A stretch of 64,000 nucleotides of DNA. Source: Roseithermus sacchariphilus. Its GTDB lineage: Bacteria; Bacteroidota; Rhodothermia; Rhodothermales; MEBIC09517. The stretch spans positions 4,574,449 through 4,638,448 of the forward strand of contig CP030158.1 of NCBI GenBank assembly GCA_003285105.1. Reading direction: 5' to 3'. Each line of letters begins with the position of its first letter. The stretch's first letter is position 1. This document shows positions 7,938-17,570 of this stretch, piece by piece. The notes beneath the pieces were generated by a model that had not been told where the DNA came from, did no database searches, and was given only the letters and a program-made list of their open reading frames with translations. The translations under genes and the position numbers were made by a program.

Positions 7938-9278
7938 CACGAGGTAGACCGTGAAGCCGAGCAGCGTCAGCCAGTACCCCTCGACGCGGTTCTGGAAGTA
8001 GAGGAAGGGCATCTGGAGCATGAAGATCAGCGGCAGCCCCGCGAAGAAGCTGATGCCCGATCCGTAGGCGGCGTCTTCCGCCACCGGCGTCTTGAACTCG
8101 GGATCGGTCACCCGGAGCAGGATGATGGCGGAGTTGATGGTCCCCGTCATCTCTCCGAAGAGCTCGACGAAGCGCTCGAAGTGGTAGTCGTCGAAGGCGC
8201 GCCAGCAGAGCCAGTAGAGCAGGCCGATGGTAGCGGCTCCGGCCAGGATGGACATGAGCAGGATCGGGAGCCAGTAGGCCTGCACGACGACGAAGCTGAT
8301 GGCGGCCACCGCCGCCACGATCAGAAAGTCGAGGAAGACGCCCATCGTGCGCGTCATCAGCCCGCTGTCGACCAGGTAGGCGCGGCCCGTGCGGTCGAGC
8401 ACGGCCCGCACCGCCAGCGCAATCAGCAGGGCCAGGATGAAGTGCAGCGACCAGAAGGTCGACACGAACCCGCCCAGGCCGGCGGCCGTCAGCGCCTCGC
8501 CCAGCAGCCACAGCGCGCCGTAGGTGAGCAGGTAGACGAACCCGATCAGCGCGAACTGGAAGGCCATGGGCTCGATGGCCTCGGACGACAGCGGCAGGTA
8601 CCCGGCCACGGGCGGCGGCGTCGTCTTGTAGACCCCGATGCGCACGTCCTCGCTGACCTCGTCGCCCTCGTCGATGAGGGCGCTACGGCGGGTTCGGATG
8701 CCCCAGTTCACCAGCGCCATCCCCCCGATGAAGGCAAACAGATAGCCGATCACGGCAAAGGTGAGCCCCACCTGCCCGCCCCCGGCAAACCCGAACTGCT
8801 CCCAGTTGCGCCCGATCGAATAGGCCATCCCCGGCCCCATCCCGAAGCCCAGCGGCACCATCAGCCCCGTGCCCACGAAGAGGTTCGGATAGAGGGTGTA
8901 GACGAGCACGAAGGCGACGATCAGCCCGACGATGGCCTGCACGAGCAGGGAGGCGAGCGACGCCAGGGCCTTGCTCAGCGGGCCTTTGCCCCACCGGTTC
9001 TTCTGCTTGCGCAACCCGAGGGCGACGAAGGTGAGCGCCAGCAGATGGTAGACGTAGAGCCCCAGCCGGTCCGAGGGCATGTCCACCCACCCCAGGCCCT
9101 GGGTGCTGACCAGCAGGGCCGCAAACCCACCGATGAGGGCATTGGGAATCAGGTAACGCTGAAAGAGTCGGACGTACCGCCGCAGCGCCGTCCCCACGAG
9201 CAGGAACGTCCCCAGGAACATGAAGTCGAGGACGACGGCGTGCAGGTTGACGTCGAGATCCCAGGGGTTGGAACCCAT
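7875..9278 (-). CDS. gltS: Sodium/glutamate symporter family protein (GltS-like)
   Basis: 467 residues from the ATG at 9278 (GSNPWDLDVNLHAVVLDFMFL). About ten to twelve hydrophobic segments are visible, with Gly-rich stretches such as VPLGFGMGPGMAYSIG and FVVVQAYWLPILLMS typical of the ESS/GltS family of Na+-dependent glutamate permeases. GltS members are usually about 400 residues; the extra length is a cytoplasmic loop around TRRSALIDEGDEVSEDVRIG. Substrate specificity is inferred from family only. Upstream lies attL of the integrated element, so the ancestral neighbour was tRNA-Leu. Confidence 0.75.
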   Translation of the reverse strand: MGSNPWDLDVNLHAVVLDFMFLGTFLLVGTALRRYVRLFQRYLIPNALIGGFAALLVSTQGLGWVDMPSDRLGLYVYHLLALTFVALGLRKQKNRWGKGPLSKALASLASLLVQAIVGLIVAFVLVYTLYPNLFVGTGLMVPLGFGMGPGMAYSIGRNWEQFGFAGGGQVGLTFAVIGYLFAFIGGMALVNWGIRTRRSALIDEGDEVSEDVRIGVYKTTPPPVAGYLPLSSEAIEPMAFQFALIGFVYLLTYGALWLLGEALTAAGLGGFVSTFWSLHFILALLIALAVRAVLDRTGRAYLVDSGLMTRTMGVFLDFLIVAAVAAISFVVVQAYWLPILLMSILAGAATIGLLYWLCWRAFDDYHFERFVELFGEMTGTINSAIILLRVTDPEFKTPVAEDAAYGSGISFFAGLPLIFMLQMPFLYFQNRVEGYWLTLLGFTVYLVLLLAVWRWIGFLDLKGPGRK

Positions 9279-9436: not shown

Positions 9437-9454
9437 GTGGGGAGAGCGGGACTC
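9437..9454. other. attL: duplicated 3' end of tRNA-Leu
   Basis: The 18 bases GTGGGGAGAGCGGGACTC match the 3' end of the tRNA-Leu gene at 17347-17364 exactly and then diverge (CAACAGC versus GAACCCG). This is the truncated tRNA end expected at the left junction of a tRNA-targeted integrative element. Confidence 0.9.
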
Positions 9455-9705: not shown

Positions 9706-10935
9706 ATGGCAAGTGTACGCATCATCCAGCGTAAGGACAAGAGCCGGGCCGACGGGACCGCGCCGCTCTACGTCCGCATCACGGCCCGCCGCCGGAGCCG
9801 CTACGTCTCGACGGGCATCTACGTCGAGCCGCGCCACTTCAACGCGGCCCGCCAGGAGGTACGCCGCTCGCACCCGCTCGCATCCGCCTACAACGCCCGG
9901 CTCCAGGACCTGCGCCTGGAGGCCGAGCGGGCCGCCCTGGAGGCCGACGCCCCGGAGGCCGTCAAGGACGCACTCCAGGGACGCGCCGGGAGCCTGACGC
10001 GCTACTTCGAGCGCTTCATCGAGGGGCTGGAGCAGGCCGGCCAGTACTGGGAGCGCAAAAAGTACACGACGACGCTGCGCAAGCTGCGCGCCTGCCTGGG
10101 CGAGGAGATCGACTTTGCCGACCTGGACCGGGAGGCCCTGCGCCGCTTCGAGGTGTACCTGCGCGACCGCGTGGGCAACCGGCCCAACACCCGGCGCAAG
10201 GAGTTTGCCCGCCTGCGCCGCGTCGTCCGCCAGGCCGTCAAGGATGGCGTGATACCGCCCGAGAAGGACGCGCTGGCATACTTCGACCTGCCCAAAGCCG
10301 AGCGGCCCGTACGGCGCAAGCTGACGCTGGAGGAGGTGCGGGCGCTGGAGGCGGCCGACCTGGAGCCCGGTAGCTGGCCGGCGCTGGCCCGGGACGCCTA
10401 CGTGCTGGCCGTCTACGCCGGCGGCATGCGCGTCTCGGACGTGTGCAACCTGAGGCGCCGCCACGTCGAGCGCGACGGCGACACGCTCCGTCTGCACTAC
10501 AGGCAAATGAAGACGGGTACGCCCGTCTCGATGCCGCTGCCGCCGCCGGCCCGCCGGATCGTCGAGCACTACCTGGAGGGCGCCGCCGATGGACGCGTAA
10601 CGCGTCCTGATCCCGATGCCTACGTGATGCCCTTCCTGCGCGACCGGGACACCGGGGACGGTGTGCGCCTGCGCCGGGCCATCGGGGCGGTAAACGTGAT
10701 GCTCAACCGGGGCATCAAGGAGGCGGCCCGTGTGGCCGGCCTGGAGCGTCCTGAGACGATCTCGATGCACACGGCCCGGCACACCTTCGCGGACTACGCC
10801 CGGAGCCGTACGGGCGACCTGTACGCCGTGAGCCGGGCTCTGGGGCACCGCAACTTGAAGACGACGGAGGCCTATCTGCGCAGCCTTGACCAGGCCGCCG
10901 TCGACAACCTGGCGAGGACGCTATGGAGCGAGTGA
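9706..10935 (+). CDS. int: Site-specific tyrosine recombinase (integrase) of the island
   Basis: 409 residues. An N-terminal arm-binding-like region (SVRIIQRKDKSRADGTAPLYVRIT, the type found in Bacteroidota integrases) is followed by a SAM-like core-binding domain (about 95-195) and a catalytic domain. Catalytic residues are visible: Arg in AGGMRVSD (about 242), H-x-x-R in HTARHTF (about 355-358), the GH pair in LGHRNLK, and the nucleophile Tyr in TTEAYL (about 390). The ATG at 9706 has GAGG five bases upstream; a GTG at 9700 is less likely. The next gene starts 13 bp before its stop, so the two are translationally coupled. It should integrate and excise the element at tRNA-Leu. Confidence 0.95.
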   Translation: MASVRIIQRKDKSRADGTAPLYVRITARRRSRYVSTGIYVEPRHFNAARQEVRRSHPLASAYNARLQDLRLEAERAALEADAPEAVKDALQGRAGSLTRYFERFIEGLEQAGQYWERKKYTTTLRKLRACLGEEIDFADLDREALRRFEVYLRDRVGNRPNTRRKEFARLRRVVRQAVKDGVIPPEKDALAYFDLPKAERPVRRKLTLEEVRALEAADLEPGSWPALARDAYVLAVYAGGMRVSDVCNLRRRHVERDGDTLRLHYRQMKTGTPVSMPLPPPARRIVEHYLEGAADGRVTRPDPDAYVMPFLRDRDTGDGVRLRRAIGAVNVMLNRGIKEAARVAGLERPETISMHTARHTFADYARSRTGDLYAVSRALGHRNLKTTEAYLRSLDQAAVDNLARTLWSE

Positions 10936-11965: not shown

Positions 11966-12262
11966 ATGACCGAGATCATCGCTGCCACGCGCGCGGACCT
12001 GGAGGCCGCCGTCGAGGCCGCCGTCCGCCGCGCCATCGAGGAGGCCCTGCCGGAGGCCGTCCGCCGCGCCACGGAGCCTGAGTATATGACCAGCGCCGAG
12101 CTGATGGCCCTGACGGGCTGGAGCGAGCGCAAATTGGCCTACCTGCGCCAGCGGCGCGAGCTGCCGTTCATCAAGCGGGGCCGTTCCGTACTGTACCCCC
12201 GCGAGGGCATCCGCGACTACCTGGAGGAGGGCCGCGTCCGCGCCCGGAGGGCCGCCCGATGA
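11966..12262 (+). CDS. AlpA/excisionase-family helix-turn-helix protein
   Basis: 98 residues. An Ala/Glu-rich N-terminal helix (about 8-38) precedes a winged HTH_17-type domain: YMTSAELMALTGWSERKLAYL is the helix-turn-helix and LPFIKRGRSVLYPREGIRDYL is the wing and final helix typical of Xis/AlpA proteins. In integrative elements such proteins act as recombination directionality factors and, in satellites, as activators of integrase or excision. The next gene's ATG overlaps its stop (ATGA), so it opens a tightly packed operon with the primase. Confidence 0.85.
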   Translation: MTEIIAATRADLEAAVEAAVRRAIEEALPEAVRRATEPEYMTSAELMALTGWSERKLAYLRQRRELPFIKRGRSVLYPREGIRDYLEEGRVRARRAAR

Positions 12263-12477
12263 CCGCCCGCATCTACCCCGTGGTGCCGCCCGCCCTGCCA
12301 CCGGAGCGCCGCCGGCCGTGCCGGGACCGCATCGAGCGGCTGTCCGTCGTCGAGAGGCCGCCCGCCGCCGTGGCCTACCTGGAGGCCCGCACCCTGGCCG
12401 AGGCGTACCCGGCCCACCTGGCCGCCATCCAGGCCGGCCTGGCCGACGGCCTGAGGGGCCGGAGGGTGCCGGCATGA
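12259..12477 (+). CDS. Small island protein of unknown function
   Basis: 72 residues, overlapping both neighbours by ATGA-type stop/start junctions (12259-12262 and 12474-12477), which is good evidence that it is translated. The sequence (ARIYPVVPPALPPERRRPC, then AVAYLEARTLAEAYPAHLA) has no known motif. It is probably a small accessory of the adjacent primase-helicase or regulator. Confidence 0.65.
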   Translation: MTARIYPVVPPALPPERRRPCRDRIERLSVVERPPAAVAYLEARTLAEAYPAHLAAIQAGLADGLRGRRVPA

Positions 12478-14474
12478 GGGCCGAGGACCTGCTGCGCCGT
12501 CTCCACGGCGTGCGCCGATCCGGCAGCGGCTACGTCGCTCGATGCCCGGCCCACGACGACAGCGAGCCGTCGCTGTCGATCGCGGAGGGCGAGGACGGCC
12601 GCGTGCTGCTCCACTGCCACGCCGGCTGCCCCACGGAGGCGGTCGTGGGGGCCCTGGGGCTGCGCCTGGCCGACCTGATGCCCGAGGATCTGACGCGCCA
12701 CGCGTCCGCCGGTGACGGACGCCGTGGCCGGGAGCCGGCGCCGCCGCCCGTCGAGGTAGCCCGCCACCTCTACACCGACGAGGAGGGCCGGCCGCTCTAC
12801 CAGGTGCGCCGCTACCAGCCCAAAACATTCCGCCAGTACCGCTTCGAGGCCGGCCGCTGGGTGCCGGGCCTGGGAGGCGTGCGCCGCGTGCTCTACCGCC
12901 TGCCCGAGGTCCTCGAGGCCGCCCGCGCCGGGCGCGTCATCTGCGTCGTCGAGGGCGAGAAGGACGCGGACCGCCTGGCCGGCCTCGACTTCGTGGCCAC
13001 GACCTGCGCGATGGGCGCGGGGGCCTGGCGGCCGGAGCATAGCGAGGCCCTGCGAGGCGCCCATGTGGCTATCCTGCCCGACAACGACGAGCCGGGCCGC
13101 CGGCACGCCGCCGAGGTGGCCCGGGCCGTGTGGGGTGTGGCCCGGAGTGTCCGCATCGTCGAGCTACCCGGCCTGCCCGAGAGGGGCGACGTCTCCGACT
13201 GGCTCGATGCCGGCCACCTGCCGGCGGACCTGCGCCGCATCATCCGCGAGACGCCGCCGCTGGAGGCGCCACCGGAGCCGCCGTCTGAGGCGCCGGACGG
13301 GCCGCCTGAGCGCCAGCAGGAGGCGCGATCTCCCGAGGCCCGGGCGGTGGCCGTGCGCGTCGCTGACGTCGAGCGAGAGGCCATCCGCTGGCTCTGGCCG
13401 GGGCGGCTGGCCCTGGGGAAGCTGGCCATCCTCGACGGCGATCCCGGCCTAGGCAAATCGACGCTGTACTGCGACCTGGCCGCCCGCATCACGACGGGGC
13501 GGCCGTGGCCTGACGCACCCGACGCCCCCCCCGGTGAGCCGGCCGACGCTGTCATCATCGGCTGCGAGGACGGCATTGCCGACACGATCCGGCCGCGCCT
13601 GGAGGAGGCCGGGGCCGACCTGCGCCGCGTCCACGTCATCCAGGCCGTCCGGGAGGGCGAGGACCTGACCGTGCCGCGCCTGCCCGACCACATCGACGCT
13701 ATCGAGGCCGTCGTCCGGGAGACGGGCGCCGCCCTGCTCGTCGTCGATCCGATCATGGCCCACCTGGGCGACCGCATCAACGCGCATCGCGACGCCGACA
13801 TACGCCGCGCCCTGACGCCGCTAGCGCTGCTGTGCGAGCGCTGCGGCTGCGCCGGCCTGGTCGTCCGTCATCTCAACAAGATGCCCGGCGGGGACCCGCT
13901 CTACCGGGGCGGTGGCTCCATCGGCATCATCGGCCAGGCCCGTCTCGGGCTTCTGCTGGCGTCGCACCCGGAGCACGAGACGGCCGACGGCGTGCGCGTG
14001 CTGGCCATGACGAAGGCCAACGTGGGGGCGTGGCGCCCGTCACTGGTGCTGCGCCTGGCCAGCAGCGAGCACGATCCCGACACCGCCGTGATCCGCTGGG
14101 AGGGCACGACGCCGCTCACGGCCCGCGACCTGCTGGCCCGCCCGAGGGCCGAACGCCCGCGTGACGAGGCCGCCGACTGGCTCCGGGAGCGCCTGGCATC
14201 GGCCGCCGACCCGGTGCCGGCCCGCACGCTCTACGCCGAGGCCGAGGCCCGGGGCATCAGCACAAAGACGCTAAAGCGAGCCAAAGTCCGCCTGGGCGTG
14301 ATCTCGGAGCAGGTGCCGCCGAGGCCGGGCGGCACGTGGTACTGGAGCCTGCCCGGAGCCGGCGCGTCACACATATACCCGGGCGAGGTGTTCGACGTCC
14401 CGGAGGCCCCAGAGGGCCAGTTTTACCAAAGTGGCCCTCTGGGAGACGGCACAGACGACGAAGTGCCCTTCTAG
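12474..14474 (+). CDS. Primase-helicase: CHC2-like zinc finger, TOPRIM and RepA/RecA-like ATPase
   Basis: 666 residues. A zinc-ribbon with C24-P-A-H27 and C48-x3-C52 resembles the CHC2 finger of DnaG-type primases. A TOPRIM domain follows, with the glutamate in VVEGEKDA (E160) and the acidic pair in LPDNDEPG (D203, D205). After a Pro/Glu-rich linker (about 260-290) comes an AAA_25/RepA-like ATPase with Walker A GDPGLGKST at 322-330, Walker B LLVVDP near 421-426, and a VVRHLNKMPGGDPLYRGGGS segment. The C-terminus may bind DNA. Primase and helicase in one chain suggest autonomous replication of the excised element. Inverted repeats overlap and follow its 3' end. Confidence 0.9.
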   Translation: MRAEDLLRRLHGVRRSGSGYVARCPAHDDSEPSLSIAEGEDGRVLLHCHAGCPTEAVVGALGLRLADLMPEDLTRHASAGDGRRGREPAPPPVEVARHLYTDEEGRPLYQVRRYQPKTFRQYRFEAGRWVPGLGGVRRVLYRLPEVLEAARAGRVICVVEGEKDADRLAGLDFVATTCAMGAGAWRPEHSEALRGAHVAILPDNDEPGRRHAAEVARAVWGVARSVRIVELPGLPERGDVSDWLDAGHLPADLRRIIRETPPLEAPPEPPSEAPDGPPERQQEARSPEARAVAVRVADVEREAIRWLWPGRLALGKLAILDGDPGLGKSTLYCDLAARITTGRPWPDAPDAPPGEPADAVIIGCEDGIADTIRPRLEEAGADLRRVHVIQAVREGEDLTVPRLPDHIDAIEAVVRETGAALLVVDPIMAHLGDRINAHRDADIRRALTPLALLCERCGCAGLVVRHLNKMPGGDPLYRGGGSIGIIGQARLGLLLASHPEHETADGVRVLAMTKANVGAWRPSLVLRLASSEHDPDTAVIRWEGTTPLTARDLLARPRAERPRDEAADWLRERLASAADPVPARTLYAEAEARGISTKTLKRAKVRLGVISEQVPPRPGGTWYWSLPGAGASHIYPGEVFDVPEAPEGQFYQSGPLGDGTDDEVPF

Positions 14475-14548
14475 GCACCAAAAACGCCGATTTTGCCAGA
14501 GGGCCACCAGAGGGCCACCTGGGAGGCCCAGAAAAAGTGGCCCTCTGG
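14409..14548. repeat. Five iteron-like copies of CCAGAGGGCCA, candidate replication origin
   Basis: The 11-mer CCAGAGGGCCA occurs at 14409-14419, 14496-14506 and 14507-14517 on the plus strand and inverted (TGGCCCTCTGG) at 14432-14442 and 14538-14548. The first pair lies inside the primase coding end and can form an 11-bp stem; the others fill the gap after the gene. Repeats beside a primase-helicase are typical of a replication origin or autoregulatory site. Confidence 0.7.
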
Positions 14549-14555
14549 CACATAT

Positions 14556-14565
14556 CACATATGTG
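14556..14565. promoter_or_regulatory. CACATATGTG palindrome before the 14588 gene
   Basis: A perfect 10-bp palindrome in a small AT-rich island (14549-14570) between the iteron-like repeats and the next gene. It may be a melting region of an origin or an operator. Confidence 0.4.
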
Positions 14566-14587
14566 TGAGAGCCTGGGAGAGTGTGCC

Positions 14588-15136
14588 ATGACCCTGACAC
14601 AGACGTTTGACGAGGTGCAGCGGCGCCGCCTGCGTATGTGGCGGGCCCGCTCCGGGGCCGGGGATCGCCTGCTGGTCGAGCCGCGCCGCGAGATCACGCC
14701 CGACCTGGCCCGGGCCCTGATCCGGCACCGCCGCCTGATCCTGGACCGGCTCCTGCTCCAGGAGGTCCTCGATGCCATGCTCGACGCCGTGCCGGAGGGC
14801 GCGGACCCGGAGCGGTGGCGGGCCTGCATCGAGCCGCTGGAGTACTTCGACGACGCCTTCGGCGGCAACCTGGAGGAGGGTTTCCTGTGCGCCTGGTACT
14901 GGTACGCATCGGTCTACCTGCCGCGTGCGCCCTTCGACCTGGAGGGCTGGGGGCCGGTGGAGGAGCCCGTCGAGTTTTACCACAGCATCGCGGAGGTCTT
15001 GCGGGAGGCCGACCGTGGGCCGTCGCTAAGCGTCGCCTTCGACCTGGTGCGCGAGCTTTACCGCGCCTTTGGCCGGGAGACGCTCCACGCCCTGAGCCGC
15101 CGTTACCTGCAAACGGAGGAGGGAGCCGATGCCTGA
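14588..15136 (+). CDS. Island protein of unknown function
   Basis: 182 residues from the ATG at 14588 (TLTQTFDEVQRRRLRMWRARSG); longer upstream reading would cross the repeat region. The protein is acidic and helical. A basic N-terminal segment (RDL-type LVEPRREITPDLARALIRHRRLIL) resembles short N-terminal DNA- or docking-domains seen in plasmid and phage proteins, and Trp/Tyr-rich FLCAWYWYASVYLP lies mid-protein. No family is assigned. It overlaps the nuclease-like gene by 8 bp. Confidence 0.65.
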   Translation: MTLTQTFDEVQRRRLRMWRARSGAGDRLLVEPRREITPDLARALIRHRRLILDRLLLQEVLDAMLDAVPEGADPERWRACIEPLEYFDDAFGGNLEEGFLCAWYWYASVYLPRAPFDLEGWGPVEEPVEFYHSIAEVLREADRGPSLSVAFDLVRELYRAFGRETLHALSRRYLQTEEGADA

Positions 15137-15431
15137 AAAGCCCTGGAAGCGCACCGAGCGCAAGGTGGCCGCCCGCCTGGGAGGGCGCCGCGTGCCCGTC
15201 ACCGGCCGGAGCCGGGGCGACGCGCCCGACGTGGCCCACGACTGGCTGAGTGTCGAGGTCAAGCACCGCCGCCGCCTGCCCGCCTGGATCGAGGATGCTC
15301 TGCGCCAGGCCGAGGCCGCCGCACGGGACGGGCAGCTACCCGTGGCCGTGCTGCACCAGCGGGGGCGACGGCACGCCGAGGACCTGGTGGTGCTGCGGCT
15401 GCGGGACTTCGAGGCGTGGTTCGGGGGCTGA
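15129..15431 (+). CDS. Putative PDDEXK-type nuclease (phage resolvase-like)
   Basis: 100 residues. KRTERKVAARLGGRRVPVTGRSRGDAPDV followed by WLSVEVKHR gives the E...GD-x-PD...ExK arrangement of small PDDEXK nucleases found in phages and satellites (Holliday-junction resolvase or VRR-NUC-like). The catalytic acids would be Asp in DAPDV and Glu-Val-Lys in SVEVKHR. A role in resolving replication intermediates of the element is plausible. It is translationally coupled to the preceding gene. Confidence 0.7.
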   Translation: MPEKPWKRTERKVAARLGGRRVPVTGRSRGDAPDVAHDWLSVEVKHRRRLPAWIEDALRQAEAAARDGQLPVAVLHQRGRRHAEDLVVLRLRDFEAWFGG

Positions 15432-15536
15432 TAATGCGAGTTTTTACACTCCTGCCCGAGCGGCGGCGACGTGCCCGAAATCTCTTACCATTGCTAACCC
15501 GCCGACAGGCCCTTCGCCCGCTACGACCGGGAGACG

Positions 15537-15683
15537 GTGCCCGTGGGCCGCGGTGCGGCCTACGACTGGCCGCACCGGCCCGGCGGTGGCCGTTGCCGGT
15601 GGCCGGCCCCGCCGGAGGGCCACACGGAGCCGCCGCCGCCCGTGGAGGTCATCCGCCGCCGGAGCCGCCCGTGGTGGCGGTGA
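15537..15683 (+). CDS. Possible small Pro/Arg-rich open frame (doubtful)
   Basis: A GTG-started frame of 48 residues (PVGRGAAYDWPHRP..., ending RRRSRPWWR) fits the GC-rich codon use of the island. The frame is open back to 15498, but there is no clear Shine-Dalgarno and no family. The stretch 15432-15728 otherwise holds only the palindrome at 15685. Confidence 0.25.
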   Translation: MPVGRGAAYDWPHRPGGGRCRWPAPPEGHTEPPPPVEVIRRRSRPWWR

Positions 15684-15684
15684 C

Positions 15685-15700
15685 TGTTTGCGCGCAAACA
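15685..15700. promoter_or_regulatory. 16-bp palindrome TGTTTGCGCGCAAACA, copy 1
   Basis: A perfect 16-bp palindrome between the nuclease-like gene and the HGG-motif gene. An identical copy with the same preceding GAC occurs at 17152-17167 near the right end of the element. The exact repetition suggests a binding site for an element-encoded regulator or replication protein. Confidence 0.7.
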
Positions 15701-15728
15701 TTGGGAGCCGCGCAACGTCAAAACCCTC

Positions 15729-16175
15729 ATGGCAAAACCCCGAGGTCCTGGTCTAGACGATAACCCCATGCGCCGTTGTGGTGCCCGCACACGGGCTGGG
15801 ACGCCCTGCCGCGCACCGGCCATGAAGGGGCGGACGCGGTGCCGCCTGCACGGGGGCAAGGCCACCGGGCGCCCCTGCGTGCACGGGCTCTACAGCAAGG
15901 ACCCGGCCCGGCGTGCCGCCGCATACCGCCGCCTGGCCGCAGAGATCGCGGACACGCTCTGCGAGTTGGACCGCCGGGGATCGGCGCGGGTGGCCGCCGA
16001 GTTGGCGAAGGACCACGCCGCCGGCGGCTGGCGCCGTGACTATGCCCACCAGCAGGTGGCCGCGTGGCAGACCCGGTGGGCCTGGGGCGAGGACCTGGCC
16101 GCATGGGCCCGCATCGAGCGCCGCATCCGGCGGCGGCAGCGACGACGCATGCGCACCGGGAGCACCCGAGGTTGA
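15729..16175 (+). CDS. Phage/satellite HGG-motif protein
   Basis: 148 residues. The N-terminal half has paired Cys motifs and the signature RCGARTRAGTPCRAPAMKG and CRLHGGKATG...HGLYS seen in many phage and island proteins, often near small-terminase genes, with putative metal-binding Cys/His. The C-terminus is very basic and helical (ERRIRRRQRRRMR). DNA binding is likely, but the exact function of this family is unclear to me. Internal Met at residue 14 (RRCGARTRAGTPC) is an alternative start. Confidence 0.7.
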   Translation: MAKPRGPGLDDNPMRRCGARTRAGTPCRAPAMKGRTRCRLHGGKATGRPCVHGLYSKDPARRAAAYRRLAAEIADTLCELDRRGSARVAAELAKDHAAGGWRRDYAHQQVAAWQTRWAWGEDLAAWARIERRIRRRQRRRMRTGSTRG

Positions 16176-16262
16176 GCCGTTGTATATTGGCCTGCCTCCA
16201 TCCTCTGCCGTGCCCCTGCCGGGGCCGGGCGGCCACCCGTAGGCAGAGGTTGGGTTGAGGAT

Positions 16263-16301
16263 CGGGCACCTTCGCTTATGCCGGAGGTGCCCGTTTTTTT
16301 T
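16263..16301 (+). terminator. Intrinsic terminator after the HGG-motif gene
   Basis: CGGGCACCT (16264-16272) pairs with AGGTGCCCG (16285-16293) and is followed by a run of eight T. This ends the main plus-strand operon of the element. Confidence 0.9.
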
Positions 16302-16311
16302 ATCACTTGAC

Positions 16312-16370
16312 GATGGTAAAAAATATCATTTGCTATTGACAAGAGCATAGCAATTGCTTATATTACCATC
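16312..16370 (+). promoter_or_regulatory. Strong sigma-70-like promoter embedded in inverted repeats
   Basis: TTGACA (16336-16341), a 17-bp spacer and TATATT (16359-16364) form a near-consensus promoter in a strikingly AT-rich island. The spacer holds the palindrome AGCAATTGCT (16349-16358). TTGCTAT (16330-16336) and ATAGCAA (16347-16353) are inverted, and GATGGTAA (16312-16319) / TTACCATC (16363-16370) flank the whole. It drives the gene at 16426 and looks operator-controlled, plausibly by the Cro/C1-type protein encoded at 16821. Confidence 0.75.
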
Positions 16371-16425
16371 AGTCACGGGGCGGTGGCCGCCGCCCGATCC
16401 TCACCCCAAAAACACGGAGGTTGCC

Positions 16426-16764
16426 ATGACGCGCACCGAGGCCCTTCAGACGATCCGCCGCCACGCCGGCGACCTGCTACTGATCCACTTCACCAAGCGC
16501 ACCGACGGCACGCACCGCCGTATGGTGTGCATCTACAACCCGGAGGCCGCCGAGCGGCAGACGTTCCGCTTCAACCCGGTTGCCCGTGGGCTCTGCCCGG
16601 TCTGGGACGTGGAGAAGGGCGCCCGCCGCTTCGTCAACCTGGACGGCGTGCTGAGCATCCGCGCCATGCGCCGGGCCATGCGCCGCGATGATCGCCCGCC
16701 GATCCGCCGGGCCGCCGGCGACGACTGGCAGAGCTACCAGGCCCGCGTCCAGGACCTGTTCTGA
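16426..16764 (+). CDS. Island protein of unknown function under the AT-rich promoter
   Basis: 112 residues from the ATG at 16426, with ACGGAGG five bases upstream. The sequence (TRTEALQTIRRHAGDLLLIHFTKRTDG, CIYNPEAAERQTFRFNP, LCPVWDVEKGARRFVNLDGV) looks like a small mixed alpha/beta protein, and WDVEKGARRFVNLDGV resembles viral/plasmid SH3-like beta modules. No family is assigned. A strong regulated promoter and a perfect ribosome-binding site suggest high expression, perhaps on induction. Confidence 0.7.
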   Translation: MTRTEALQTIRRHAGDLLLIHFTKRTDGTHRRMVCIYNPEAAERQTFRFNPVARGLCPVWDVEKGARRFVNLDGVLSIRAMRRAMRRDDRPPIRRAAGDDWQSYQARVQDLF

Positions 16765-16820
16765 CGCCACCGGGGCGGCCGGACCTACCGGCCGCCCCTT
16801 CACCTTGACCCGTAACGACG

Positions 16821-17054
16821 ATGCCGAAGAAGCCTGAAATCCTCGATGAGGCCGCCCTGCACGCGCTGGCCCGCGAAGCCTTCGAGCGTACCGGCCTGAC
16901 GCAGAGGGAGGCGGCCGAGCGCTTGGGCGTGACGCAGGGAGCCGTGAGCCAGGCCCTGCGCCACGCGGGCGGGCGGTATGTGGCCCTGCAATGCCGCATC
17001 GTGGAGCTGGCCGGCTGGCGGTGTGAGGGCCCGCGCTGGCTGGTGTACCGGTAG
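16821..17054 (+). CDS. Small Cro/C1 (XRE)-type helix-turn-helix regulator
   Basis: 77 residues. The helix-turn-helix is LTQREAAERLGVTQGAVSQALRHAG (about 24-48), of the lambda Cro/C1 type. It lies 56 bp after the 16426 gene and is probably in the same transcript. It is the best candidate for binding the inverted repeats in 16312-16370, giving a self-controlled switch. Confidence 0.8.
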   Translation: MPKKPEILDEAALHALAREAFERTGLTQREAAERLGVTQGAVSQALRHAGGRYVALQCRIVELAGWRCEGPRWLVYR

Positions 17055-17086
17055 GAGGGTGCAAAATCCCTGCGACCCATGCCCGG

Positions 17087-17119
17087 GGGGTGCCCACGGG
17101 GTGCCCACGGGGTGCCCGC
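17087..17119. repeat. Three tandem 11-bp repeats near the right end of the element
   Basis: GGGGTGCCCAC occurs at 17087-17097 and 17098-17108, with GGGGTGCCCGC at 17109-17119. They follow the Cro/C1 gene and precede the palindrome copy at 17152. The stretch 17055-17346 carries no gene. Confidence 0.75.
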
Positions 17120-17151
17120 GGAGGACCCGGGGTGTGGCGGGGCGTGCCGAC

Positions 17152-17167
17152 TGTTTGCGCGCAAACA
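17152..17167. promoter_or_regulatory. 16-bp palindrome TGTTTGCGCGCAAACA, copy 2
   Basis: Identical to the palindrome at 15685-15700, including the preceding GAC. It lies in the non-coding right end of the element. Confidence 0.7.
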
Positions 17168-17199
17168 CGGGGGCCCTGGAGGGACCGGCGCAGACGCAA

Positions 17200-17234
17200 A
17201 ACGGCCGCTCCTGGCTGGTGCCGGAGCGGCCGTT
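17200..17234 (-). terminator. Perfect 12-bp hairpin, likely terminator of tRNA-Leu transcription
   Basis: AACGGCCGCTCC (17200-17211) and GGAGCGGCCGTT (17223-17234) form a perfect stem with an 11-nt loop. On the minus strand it is followed by TTTTG, so it would end transcription coming from the tRNA-Leu gene. It belongs to the element, so integration would supply a new tRNA terminator. Confidence 0.6.
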
Positions 17235-17279
17235 GCCGTGCTCGGTAAAGCGGCCCGTTTGGGGAGCAAATCGGGACTT

Positions 17280-17300
17280 TGTTTTACCTATGTTGTACCC
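17280..17300. repeat. Arm-type repeats near attR
   Basis: TGTTTTACC at 17280-17288 and the variant TGTTGTACCC at 17291-17300 match the three repeats near attL. Finding the same motif at both ends supports an integrase arm-site role. Confidence 0.65.
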
Positions 17301-17313
17301 GTGATCCTGTAAG

Positions 17314-17345
17314 CGATTGTCCCATAGGGACTTACGGGCAATCGT
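17314..17345. repeat. Nested inverted repeats adjoining attR
   Basis: CGATTGTCCC (17314-17323) is inverted against GGGCAATCG (17337-17345), one mismatch, and GTCCCATAGGGAC (17319-17331) is a palindrome inside it. They lie immediately before the 18-bp core at 17347 and may be core-flanking integrase sites. Confidence 0.5.
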
Positions 17346-17346
17346 T

Positions 17347-17364
17347 GTGGGGAGAGCGGGACTC
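17347..17364. other. attR: core site within tRNA-Leu 3' end
   Basis: Right copy of the 18-bp direct repeat, inside the tRNA-Leu gene. See attL at 9437-9454. Confidence 0.9.
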
Positions 17365-17433
17365 GAACCCGCACGGTTCTTGCGAACCAGCGGATTTTAA
17401 GTCCGCTGCGTCTACCAATTCCGCCATCCCCCC
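17348..17433 (-). tRNA. tRNA-Leu (anticodon UAA)
   Basis: 86 nt. The acceptor stem GGGGGGA pairs with UCUCCCC (one G-U), the D-arm contains AAUUGGUAGACGC, the anticodon loop is ACUUAAAAU giving UAA, a class II variable arm is present (UGGUUCGCAAGAACC region), and the T-arm is GCGGG-UUCGAGU-CCCGC. The 3' CCA is not encoded. Its 3' end is the 18-bp core at attR, so the gene was kept intact by the element. Confidence 0.97.
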
Positions 17434-17570
17434 GGCAGGCCGTTCAAATTAAGCGTGCCTGTCGCCGGGTGCAAGCGTCCCGGAGCGTCACCACGAGACG
17501 CCGGCGAAACCTTTTCGGCAGGGGGCGTTACGTGCTGTTCCGTCTTCGTCCGGCTCCCCGGTATGCTGCC

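Follow-up and report, generated by a model that had tools for sequence, protein, structure and literature searches.

A candidate antisense-RNA switch upstream of a stand-alone WYL-fold protein gene, carried as a cassette by small tRNA-integrated elements

The stretch of 64,000 nucleotides analyzed here (the window) is part of the 4.81-Mb single contig that makes up the genome of Roseithermus sacchariphilus, and the region of interest is, as judged from its sequence, the right end of a 7.9-kb integrated element with a tyrosine integrase and an attachment repeat in a tRNA-Leu gene. The element combines the two features expected of integration into a tRNA gene, an integrase and, at its far end, a direct repeat of the tRNA 3′ end. 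The left attachment repeat, GTGGGGAGAGCGGGACTC (9437–9454), repeats 18 nt of the tRNA-Leu 3′ end in direct orientation; its right counterpart (17347–17364) lies within the tRNA-Leu(TAA) gene itself, at the 3′ end of that gene (17347–17433, minus strand). All of the other features described below are on the plus strand unless stated otherwise. The integrase, a tyrosine recombinase (9706–10935; Pfam Phage_integrase 1.6e-16, with Phage_int_SAM_5 and Arm-DNA-bind_5), is followed by a hypothetical protein, an excisionase-like HTH_17 protein (11966–12262; Pfam HTH_17 1.5e-8, PHROG excisionase/regulator 1.6e-6) and a replication protein of the TOPRIM/AAA_25 primase-helicase type (12468–14474; Pfam AAA_25 4.7e-36, PHROG DNA primase 1.1e-39) whose DNA, among plasmids, is best matched by those of Salinibacter ruber. 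A second hypothetical protein separates the replication gene from that of a protein resembling Holliday-junction resolvases (15129–15431; PHROG 6.3e-9), and then comes an HGGxSTG-domain protein (15768–16175; NCBIfam HGG_STG 5.8e-13). No capsid or tail gene was seen among the genes of this element.

Several repeated sequences punctuate the element. The perfect palindrome TGTTTGCGCGCAAACA occurs in it twice (15685–15700 and 17152–17167), and its core, GTTTGCGCGCAAAC, is found at only three places in the genome, the third being in a second element of the same genome (locus L008, near 11140). Copies or variants of this palindrome are also located at module junctions in the two sibling elements introduced below; the elements may use it for recombination or as a binding site for a protein. 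Between the HTH gene described below and the right end, a short tandem GGGGTGCCCAC repeat with an 11-bp period occupies positions 17080–17125, and near the end of the replication gene there is a 16-nt inverted pair (14409–14424/14533–14548) that ranks among the next longest in the window.

Comparison with related elements delimits a cassette within this right end. We designate the window's element A; its siblings B (L016, at a tRNA-Ser gene) and C (L017, at a tRNA-Val gene) both reside in one genome, G030, that belongs to another family of the same order. The second element of the window's own genome, A2 (L008), is integrated at a tRNA-Ser gene. A2 and A have positions 12474–16156 in common at 91.5% identity (3.7 kb; 7943–11610 of L008), as well as short stretches beyond 17050, but a blastn alignment of the window against L008 reveals that the intervening segment, 16157–17049, is missing from A2. 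The two integrases are only 30% identical, and the coexistence of 3.7 kb of shared DNA with divergent integrases and distinct tRNA targets points to a modular exchange of the integration modules. B and C, on the other hand, carry the 0.9-kb cassette, their DNA being 88–91% identical to that of A from the upstream region into the beginning of the gene at 16426. The homology among A, B and C starts close to 16180, in the promoter region of the small RNA described below, and the genes upstream of it differ among the three (the HGGxSTG gene that is the cassette's upstream neighbor in A is also in A2, and is absent from B and C); the unit is thus composed of the small-RNA region, a promoter, a gene for a WYL-fold protein and a gene for a helix-turn-helix (HTH) protein. 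The best reading of this distribution is that the cassette is carried by a family of small tRNA-integrated elements. Other repeats accompany the cassette and its genes. B and C share the palindrome TCACTGGAACATTGTTCCAGTGA, which precedes the cassette in each of them but in different surroundings (reverse-complement 7401–7440 of L016 and reverse-complement 7757–7785 of L017). Before the HTH gene, at 16774–16826, stands a hairpin, GGGGCGGCCGG/CCGGCCGCCCC, and after it CTTCACCTT-ACCCGTAACGACG; in B the GGGGCGGCCGG/CCGGCCGCCCC hairpin is doubled around an inserted 86-aa open reading frame (reverse-complement 8440–8490 and 8760–8812 of L016), as if genes entered as hairpin-flanked cassettes.

The first protein gene of the cassette is the 112-codon open reading frame with a ribosome-binding site to which the sequence-only reading had drawn attention: it runs from 16426 to 16764 and is preceded by the Shine–Dalgarno (SD) sequence GGAGG (16416–16420), 5 nt before the ATG. 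That reading had also proposed a structure prediction for its product, and the result is a WYL fold. The AlphaFold2 model, computed from an alignment of six sequences that included viral relatives, has a pLDDT of 82 and a pTM of 0.74, and the folding of the single sequence was poor (pLDDT 48.5). The top structural matches of the model are the WYL domains of BrxR, PafBC, DriD and CapW, led by BrxR and PafBC at Z 8.1, and the fold is that of a WYL/Sm-like SH3 barrel; among viral structures (BFVD), the top matches are phage WYL proteins. The Pfam family WYL_2 (PF10902) matches all three members (A, B and C) weakly, with a score for the protein of A of 17.0 bits against a gathering cut-off of 26.7 (E 0.0076), and hhalign gives a probability of 96% against gp55 of Rhodobacter phage RcSimone-Hastad, with 30% identity over 79 columns. 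Although a Z near 8 would be weak by itself, the sequence profile and the fold agree, so there is good support from modeling for considering the product of the 16426 gene a stand-alone, WYL_2-like protein. It is soluble and rich in Arg and Asp. No close relative of it was found outside the two genomes in phages, plasmids, viral contigs or genome contigs, and a single phage protein is distantly related. Weak matches in the genomes G096, G320, G032 and G359 were not accepted as genes, because some have internal stops and the stretch in G096 overlaps a different long open reading frame.

The second gene (16821–17054) encodes a 77-aa protein that is 95% identical in B and C. Previously labeled a Cro/C1-type regulator, it does have an HTH, but the models do not settle the family name: Sigma70_r4 is the top model (26.1 against a cut-off of 24.1), HTH_3 passes narrowly (23.2 against 23.0) and Cro fails (16.8 against 32.7), and no single HTH family is assignable. 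Relatives of this protein in other genomes of the order, with 32–47% identity, do not have the cassette beside them.

A strong promoter-like sequence precedes the WYL gene. TTGACA (16336–16341) and TATATT (16359–16364) are separated by a 17-nt spacer and agree with the consensus at 11 of 12 positions, with an expected transcription start near 16371, and only 0.6 sites that match at 9 or more of the 12 positions are expected in shuffles of 14 kb. That this promoter stands out in a GC-rich genome, as had been noted, is borne out at the level of the genome, where TTGACA-N16..18-TATATT occurs seven times in 4.8 Mb and the reversed pattern never. Two of the six other sites are situated just upstream of tRNA-Val and tRNA-Phe genes, and this type of promoter is therefore evidently in use by the organism. 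The hexamers are identical across A, B and C. In the entire window, moreover, TATATT is found just twice, at 16183 and at 16359, that is, in the two promoters that we propose, and the same pair is present in B and C.

Around this promoter, within 16295–16376, element A contains the three inverted repeats that had been noted earlier, GATGGTAA/TTACCATC, TTGCTAT/ATAGCAA and the palindrome AGCAATTGCT, to which a further T7/A7 inverted pair can be added. Shuffled sequences would be expected to contain 0.43 of such repeats (P about 0.001), so their number is above chance, and each of the two promoter hexamers is flanked by TTGCT half-sites. The sequence-only reading had taken the repeats for the operator of a regulatory switch, to be bound by the HTH protein; on that view the 18-nt complementary arms described below would have no role as RNA. 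A regulatory switch is still the best reading of the locus, given a real promoter, a mobile element and a small gene followed by one for a DNA-binding protein, and the 95% conservation of the HTH protein would suit such control. As a conserved operator, however, the repeats do not hold up: all three are broken in B (P 0.38) despite an identical HTH recognition region, and only two survive in C; the last half-site, TTGCTTATATT, is invariant, like the promoter hexamers. The HTH protein may still have an operator near the promoter and may regulate its own expression, and such control could coexist with that by RNA, but a switch that worked by protein alone would leave the RNA structure and the complementary arms unexplained, and we regard it as improbable.

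What the sequence-only reading had missed, and what is the strongest and most conserved feature of the locus, is a small RNA encoded directly upstream together with its 18-nt complementarity to the leader of the WYL mRNA. The predicted RNA of about 105 nt (16196–16300, with an approximate 5′ end) has a branched 5′ domain, a linker and a terminator hairpin. The TATATT at 16183–16188, conserved in B and C, is the predicted −10 element of its gene; no clear −35 element could be recognized upstream of it. An intrinsic terminator (16263–16301), made up of a 12-bp stem followed by T8, is likewise conserved in B and C. The segment 16196–16300 of A folds with a predicted energy of −61.8 kcal/mol (z = −5.0), the corresponding z values are −4.5 in B and −5.0 in C, and in each of the three no shuffled sequence was as stable. 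When the three loci, which come from two genomes, were aligned, all 28 stem pairs were kept and three of these displayed compensatory changes on both sides; slid controls yielded zero or one such double change. As 20 of 500 column shuffles reached the observed level, and as just three sequences are involved, the covariation is supportive rather than conclusive. Taken together, the small RNA is well supported by its sequence, and 16196–16300 would be the segment from which it is produced.

This RNA belongs to no family in Rfam: a cmscan search of 15400–17450, with E values up to 5, returned nothing but the tRNA above threshold and no match to the c4 RNA model (RF01695). A sub-threshold match to the DUF1874 RNA on the opposite strand (E 0.0029; 29.6 against 42 bits) was judged to be due to chance, because the T-run of the terminator is on the plus strand in all three loci. 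A model built for the new RNA and searched over 245 genomes of the class had strong matches to A, B and C only; eight weak matches (E 3e-4 to 0.03) were rejected for want of a complementary downstream arm.

The antisense segment of the small RNA, TTGGGTTGAGGATCGGGC (16250–16267), is placed between the branched stable stem domain and the intrinsic terminator, and it is complementary to GCCCGATCCTCACCCCAA in the leader of the WYL mRNA (16392–16409, or −34 to −17 relative to the ATG). The arms pair at 17 of 18 positions in A, where one target base is mismatched, at 17 of 18 in B (17 continuous) and at all 18 in C; A and C do not differ in the antisense arm. Neither the 64-kb window nor locus C has another pair of this type as long, and in B it is the joint longest. 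When the 301 bp around it were shuffled 400 times with dinucleotides preserved, the best pair with arms of at most one mismatch was 16 long and appeared once. In A, B and C alike the target covers −34 to −17 and the SD is at −10/−11, so that the duplex would end 6–7 nt short of it. With up to one mismatch, the 14-nt target core GATCCTCAACCCAA has just three occurrences in the genome, namely the small RNA, the leader and a site within one coding gene; as there is no further noncoding target at this level, the neighboring gene is the only evident one. The RNA of each element could also pair with all three leaders at 16–18 of 18 positions. Beyond these elements, an exact 16-mer of the antisense arm had 13 matches in viral contigs, none of which had the surrounding structure and which are consistent with chance; longer patterns had no match there, and at eight phage loci nothing upstream of the WYL gene formed an antisense pair that reached 14 nt.

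Inverted arms on either side of a promoter are also the layout of the invertible promoters of the Bacteroidota, as outlined in PMC8748976, and the 18-bp arms might accordingly be recombination sites between which a 124-bp promoter segment flips. We judge this highly unlikely. All three copies are in one orientation, the arms are imperfect in A and B, and an inversion would separate the RNA from the terminator that ends it. Not a single serine recombinase is encoded in the genome of B and C, and the conserved stems that lie outside the arms would go unexplained.

The explanation that we favor, and consider probable, is that the WYL gene is repressed, in the manner of c4 RNA, by an antisense RNA whose gene precedes it in tandem, the whole constituting an RNA-controlled switch that travels as a cassette. 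Built on what can be read in the DNA (the element and its cassette, the promoters, the RNA structure and a conserved, genome-unique complementarity), it would operate as follows. A promoter near 16183 would give rise to the structured RNA of about 105 nt, ended by the terminator at 16263–16301, and the second promoter, at 16336–16364, would produce the mRNA for the WYL-fold protein and probably for the downstream HTH protein too. The exposed linker (16250–16263), together with the base of the terminator stem, would base pair over 17–18 nt with the leader directly upstream of the SD. A point against this is that opening the full 18-nt antisense region is predicted to cost about 22–23 kcal/mol, because its 3′ end is in the terminator stem; for the 14 nt of the linker alone the cost is 8.5–10 kcal/mol. 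The pairing most likely lowers expression of the WYL protein, either by hindering the binding of the 30S subunit or by inviting RNase III, and translation of the WYL gene (or its mRNA) would most likely be kept low while the element is quiet in the chromosome. Such silencing would most likely act in trans as well, in cells that receive a like element, and loss of the small RNA would allow the WYL and HTH proteins to be made. We infer that these proteins then control the element; it is their place in it that suggests such roles.

In its anatomy the locus is most like the c4 RNA of phages P1 and P7 and the IsrK RNA of Gifsy-1. The former is a small structured RNA of a mobile element; its gene lies before a regulatory gene, and it blocks translation of that gene's mRNA, to which it is complementary near the ribosome-binding site (PMC12197685). 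Here too, the RNA is upstream of its target, on the same strand and complementary to the leader near the ribosome-binding site. However, only one pairing, of 17–18 nt, was found, the Rfam model of c4 does not match, RNA and mRNA start from promoters of their own on either side of a terminator, the product of the target gene is a WYL-fold protein and not a known antirepressor, and the host is not a proteobacterium. IsrK of the IsrK-orf45-anrP locus has its own terminator and is encoded on the same strand just upstream of an antirepressor operon with whose leader it pairs, and there the pairing activates (PMC4825925). By analogy, the same RNA and the same pairing could open an inhibitory leader structure in our locus and so turn translation on. 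In A, constrained folding of the target-bound leader did make opening of the SD-AUG region cheaper in the two longer stretches; no consistent change emerged over A, B and C, so activation by freeing the SD was not retained. As the duplex also ends short of the SD, the sign of the regulation is uncertain. Furthermore, IsrK acts on a read-through transcript, whereas here a second promoter, after the terminator, gives the mRNA a start of its own, and the RNA here matches no Rfam family. Activation therefore seems unlikely to us, though somewhat less so than control by the HTH protein alone.

That a single pairing of this length can repress is known from OrzO, an adjacent small RNA that silences zorO through 18 nt of complementarity to its 5′ UTR and needs no more than 15 continuous or 17 discontinuous pairs (PMC3919570). 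The copy in the window (17 of 18, with one mismatch) has exactly this minimum of 17 discontinuous pairs (PMC3919570). The likeness, and the fact that the cassette is borne by a mobile element, might suggest an addiction module akin to type I toxin–antitoxin systems, in which the small RNA would be the antitoxin and the WYL protein, alone or with the HTH protein, would be harmful. Complementarity to a 5′ UTR is indeed present here, but the small hydrophobic toxin of such systems is not: in place of the short hydrophobic peptide there is a soluble 112-aa WYL-fold protein with relatives in tailed phages, and the tandem order of the genes differs from the divergent zor/orz layout. We give an addiction module little credence, about as little as a switch based on protein alone.

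Repression by an antisense RNA would also bring the element close to satellite phage P4, whose CI RNA, processed out of the very leader on which it acts, causes premature termination. Both would be cases of RNA-based immunity of a small integrative element that works on a leader, but the RNA here would form a unit of its own that ends in an intrinsic terminator. The WYL proteins BrxR, CapW, PafBC and DriD combine HTH, WYL and WCX domains. The 16426 protein has the barrel fold of their WYL domains, but in this case the WYL domain is alone and a small HTH protein is encoded next door. A more ambitious extension, which we put forward as a speculation with perhaps a slightly better chance than activation by the RNA, is that the cassette represents a new class of RNA-based immunity of small integrative elements. 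The shared antisense RNA, by which siblings would be silenced in trans, would hold down a split damage sensor in which the stand-alone WYL protein, whose fold binds ssDNA in DriD and CapW, and the separate HTH protein trigger excision or replication.

The RNA family appears to be new, as it has no match in Rfam, and the gene that it would control appears to encode a stand-alone WYL-fold protein. RNA-controlled switches of the lysogeny type have been described in a handful of proteobacterial phages. If the proposed switch is real, it would carry this logic into another bacterial group, to small elements integrated at tRNA genes among which phage structural genes were not seen, and the stand-alone WYL proteins, a class frequent in tailed phages to which no function has been assigned, would gain a regulatory setting in which they can be tested.
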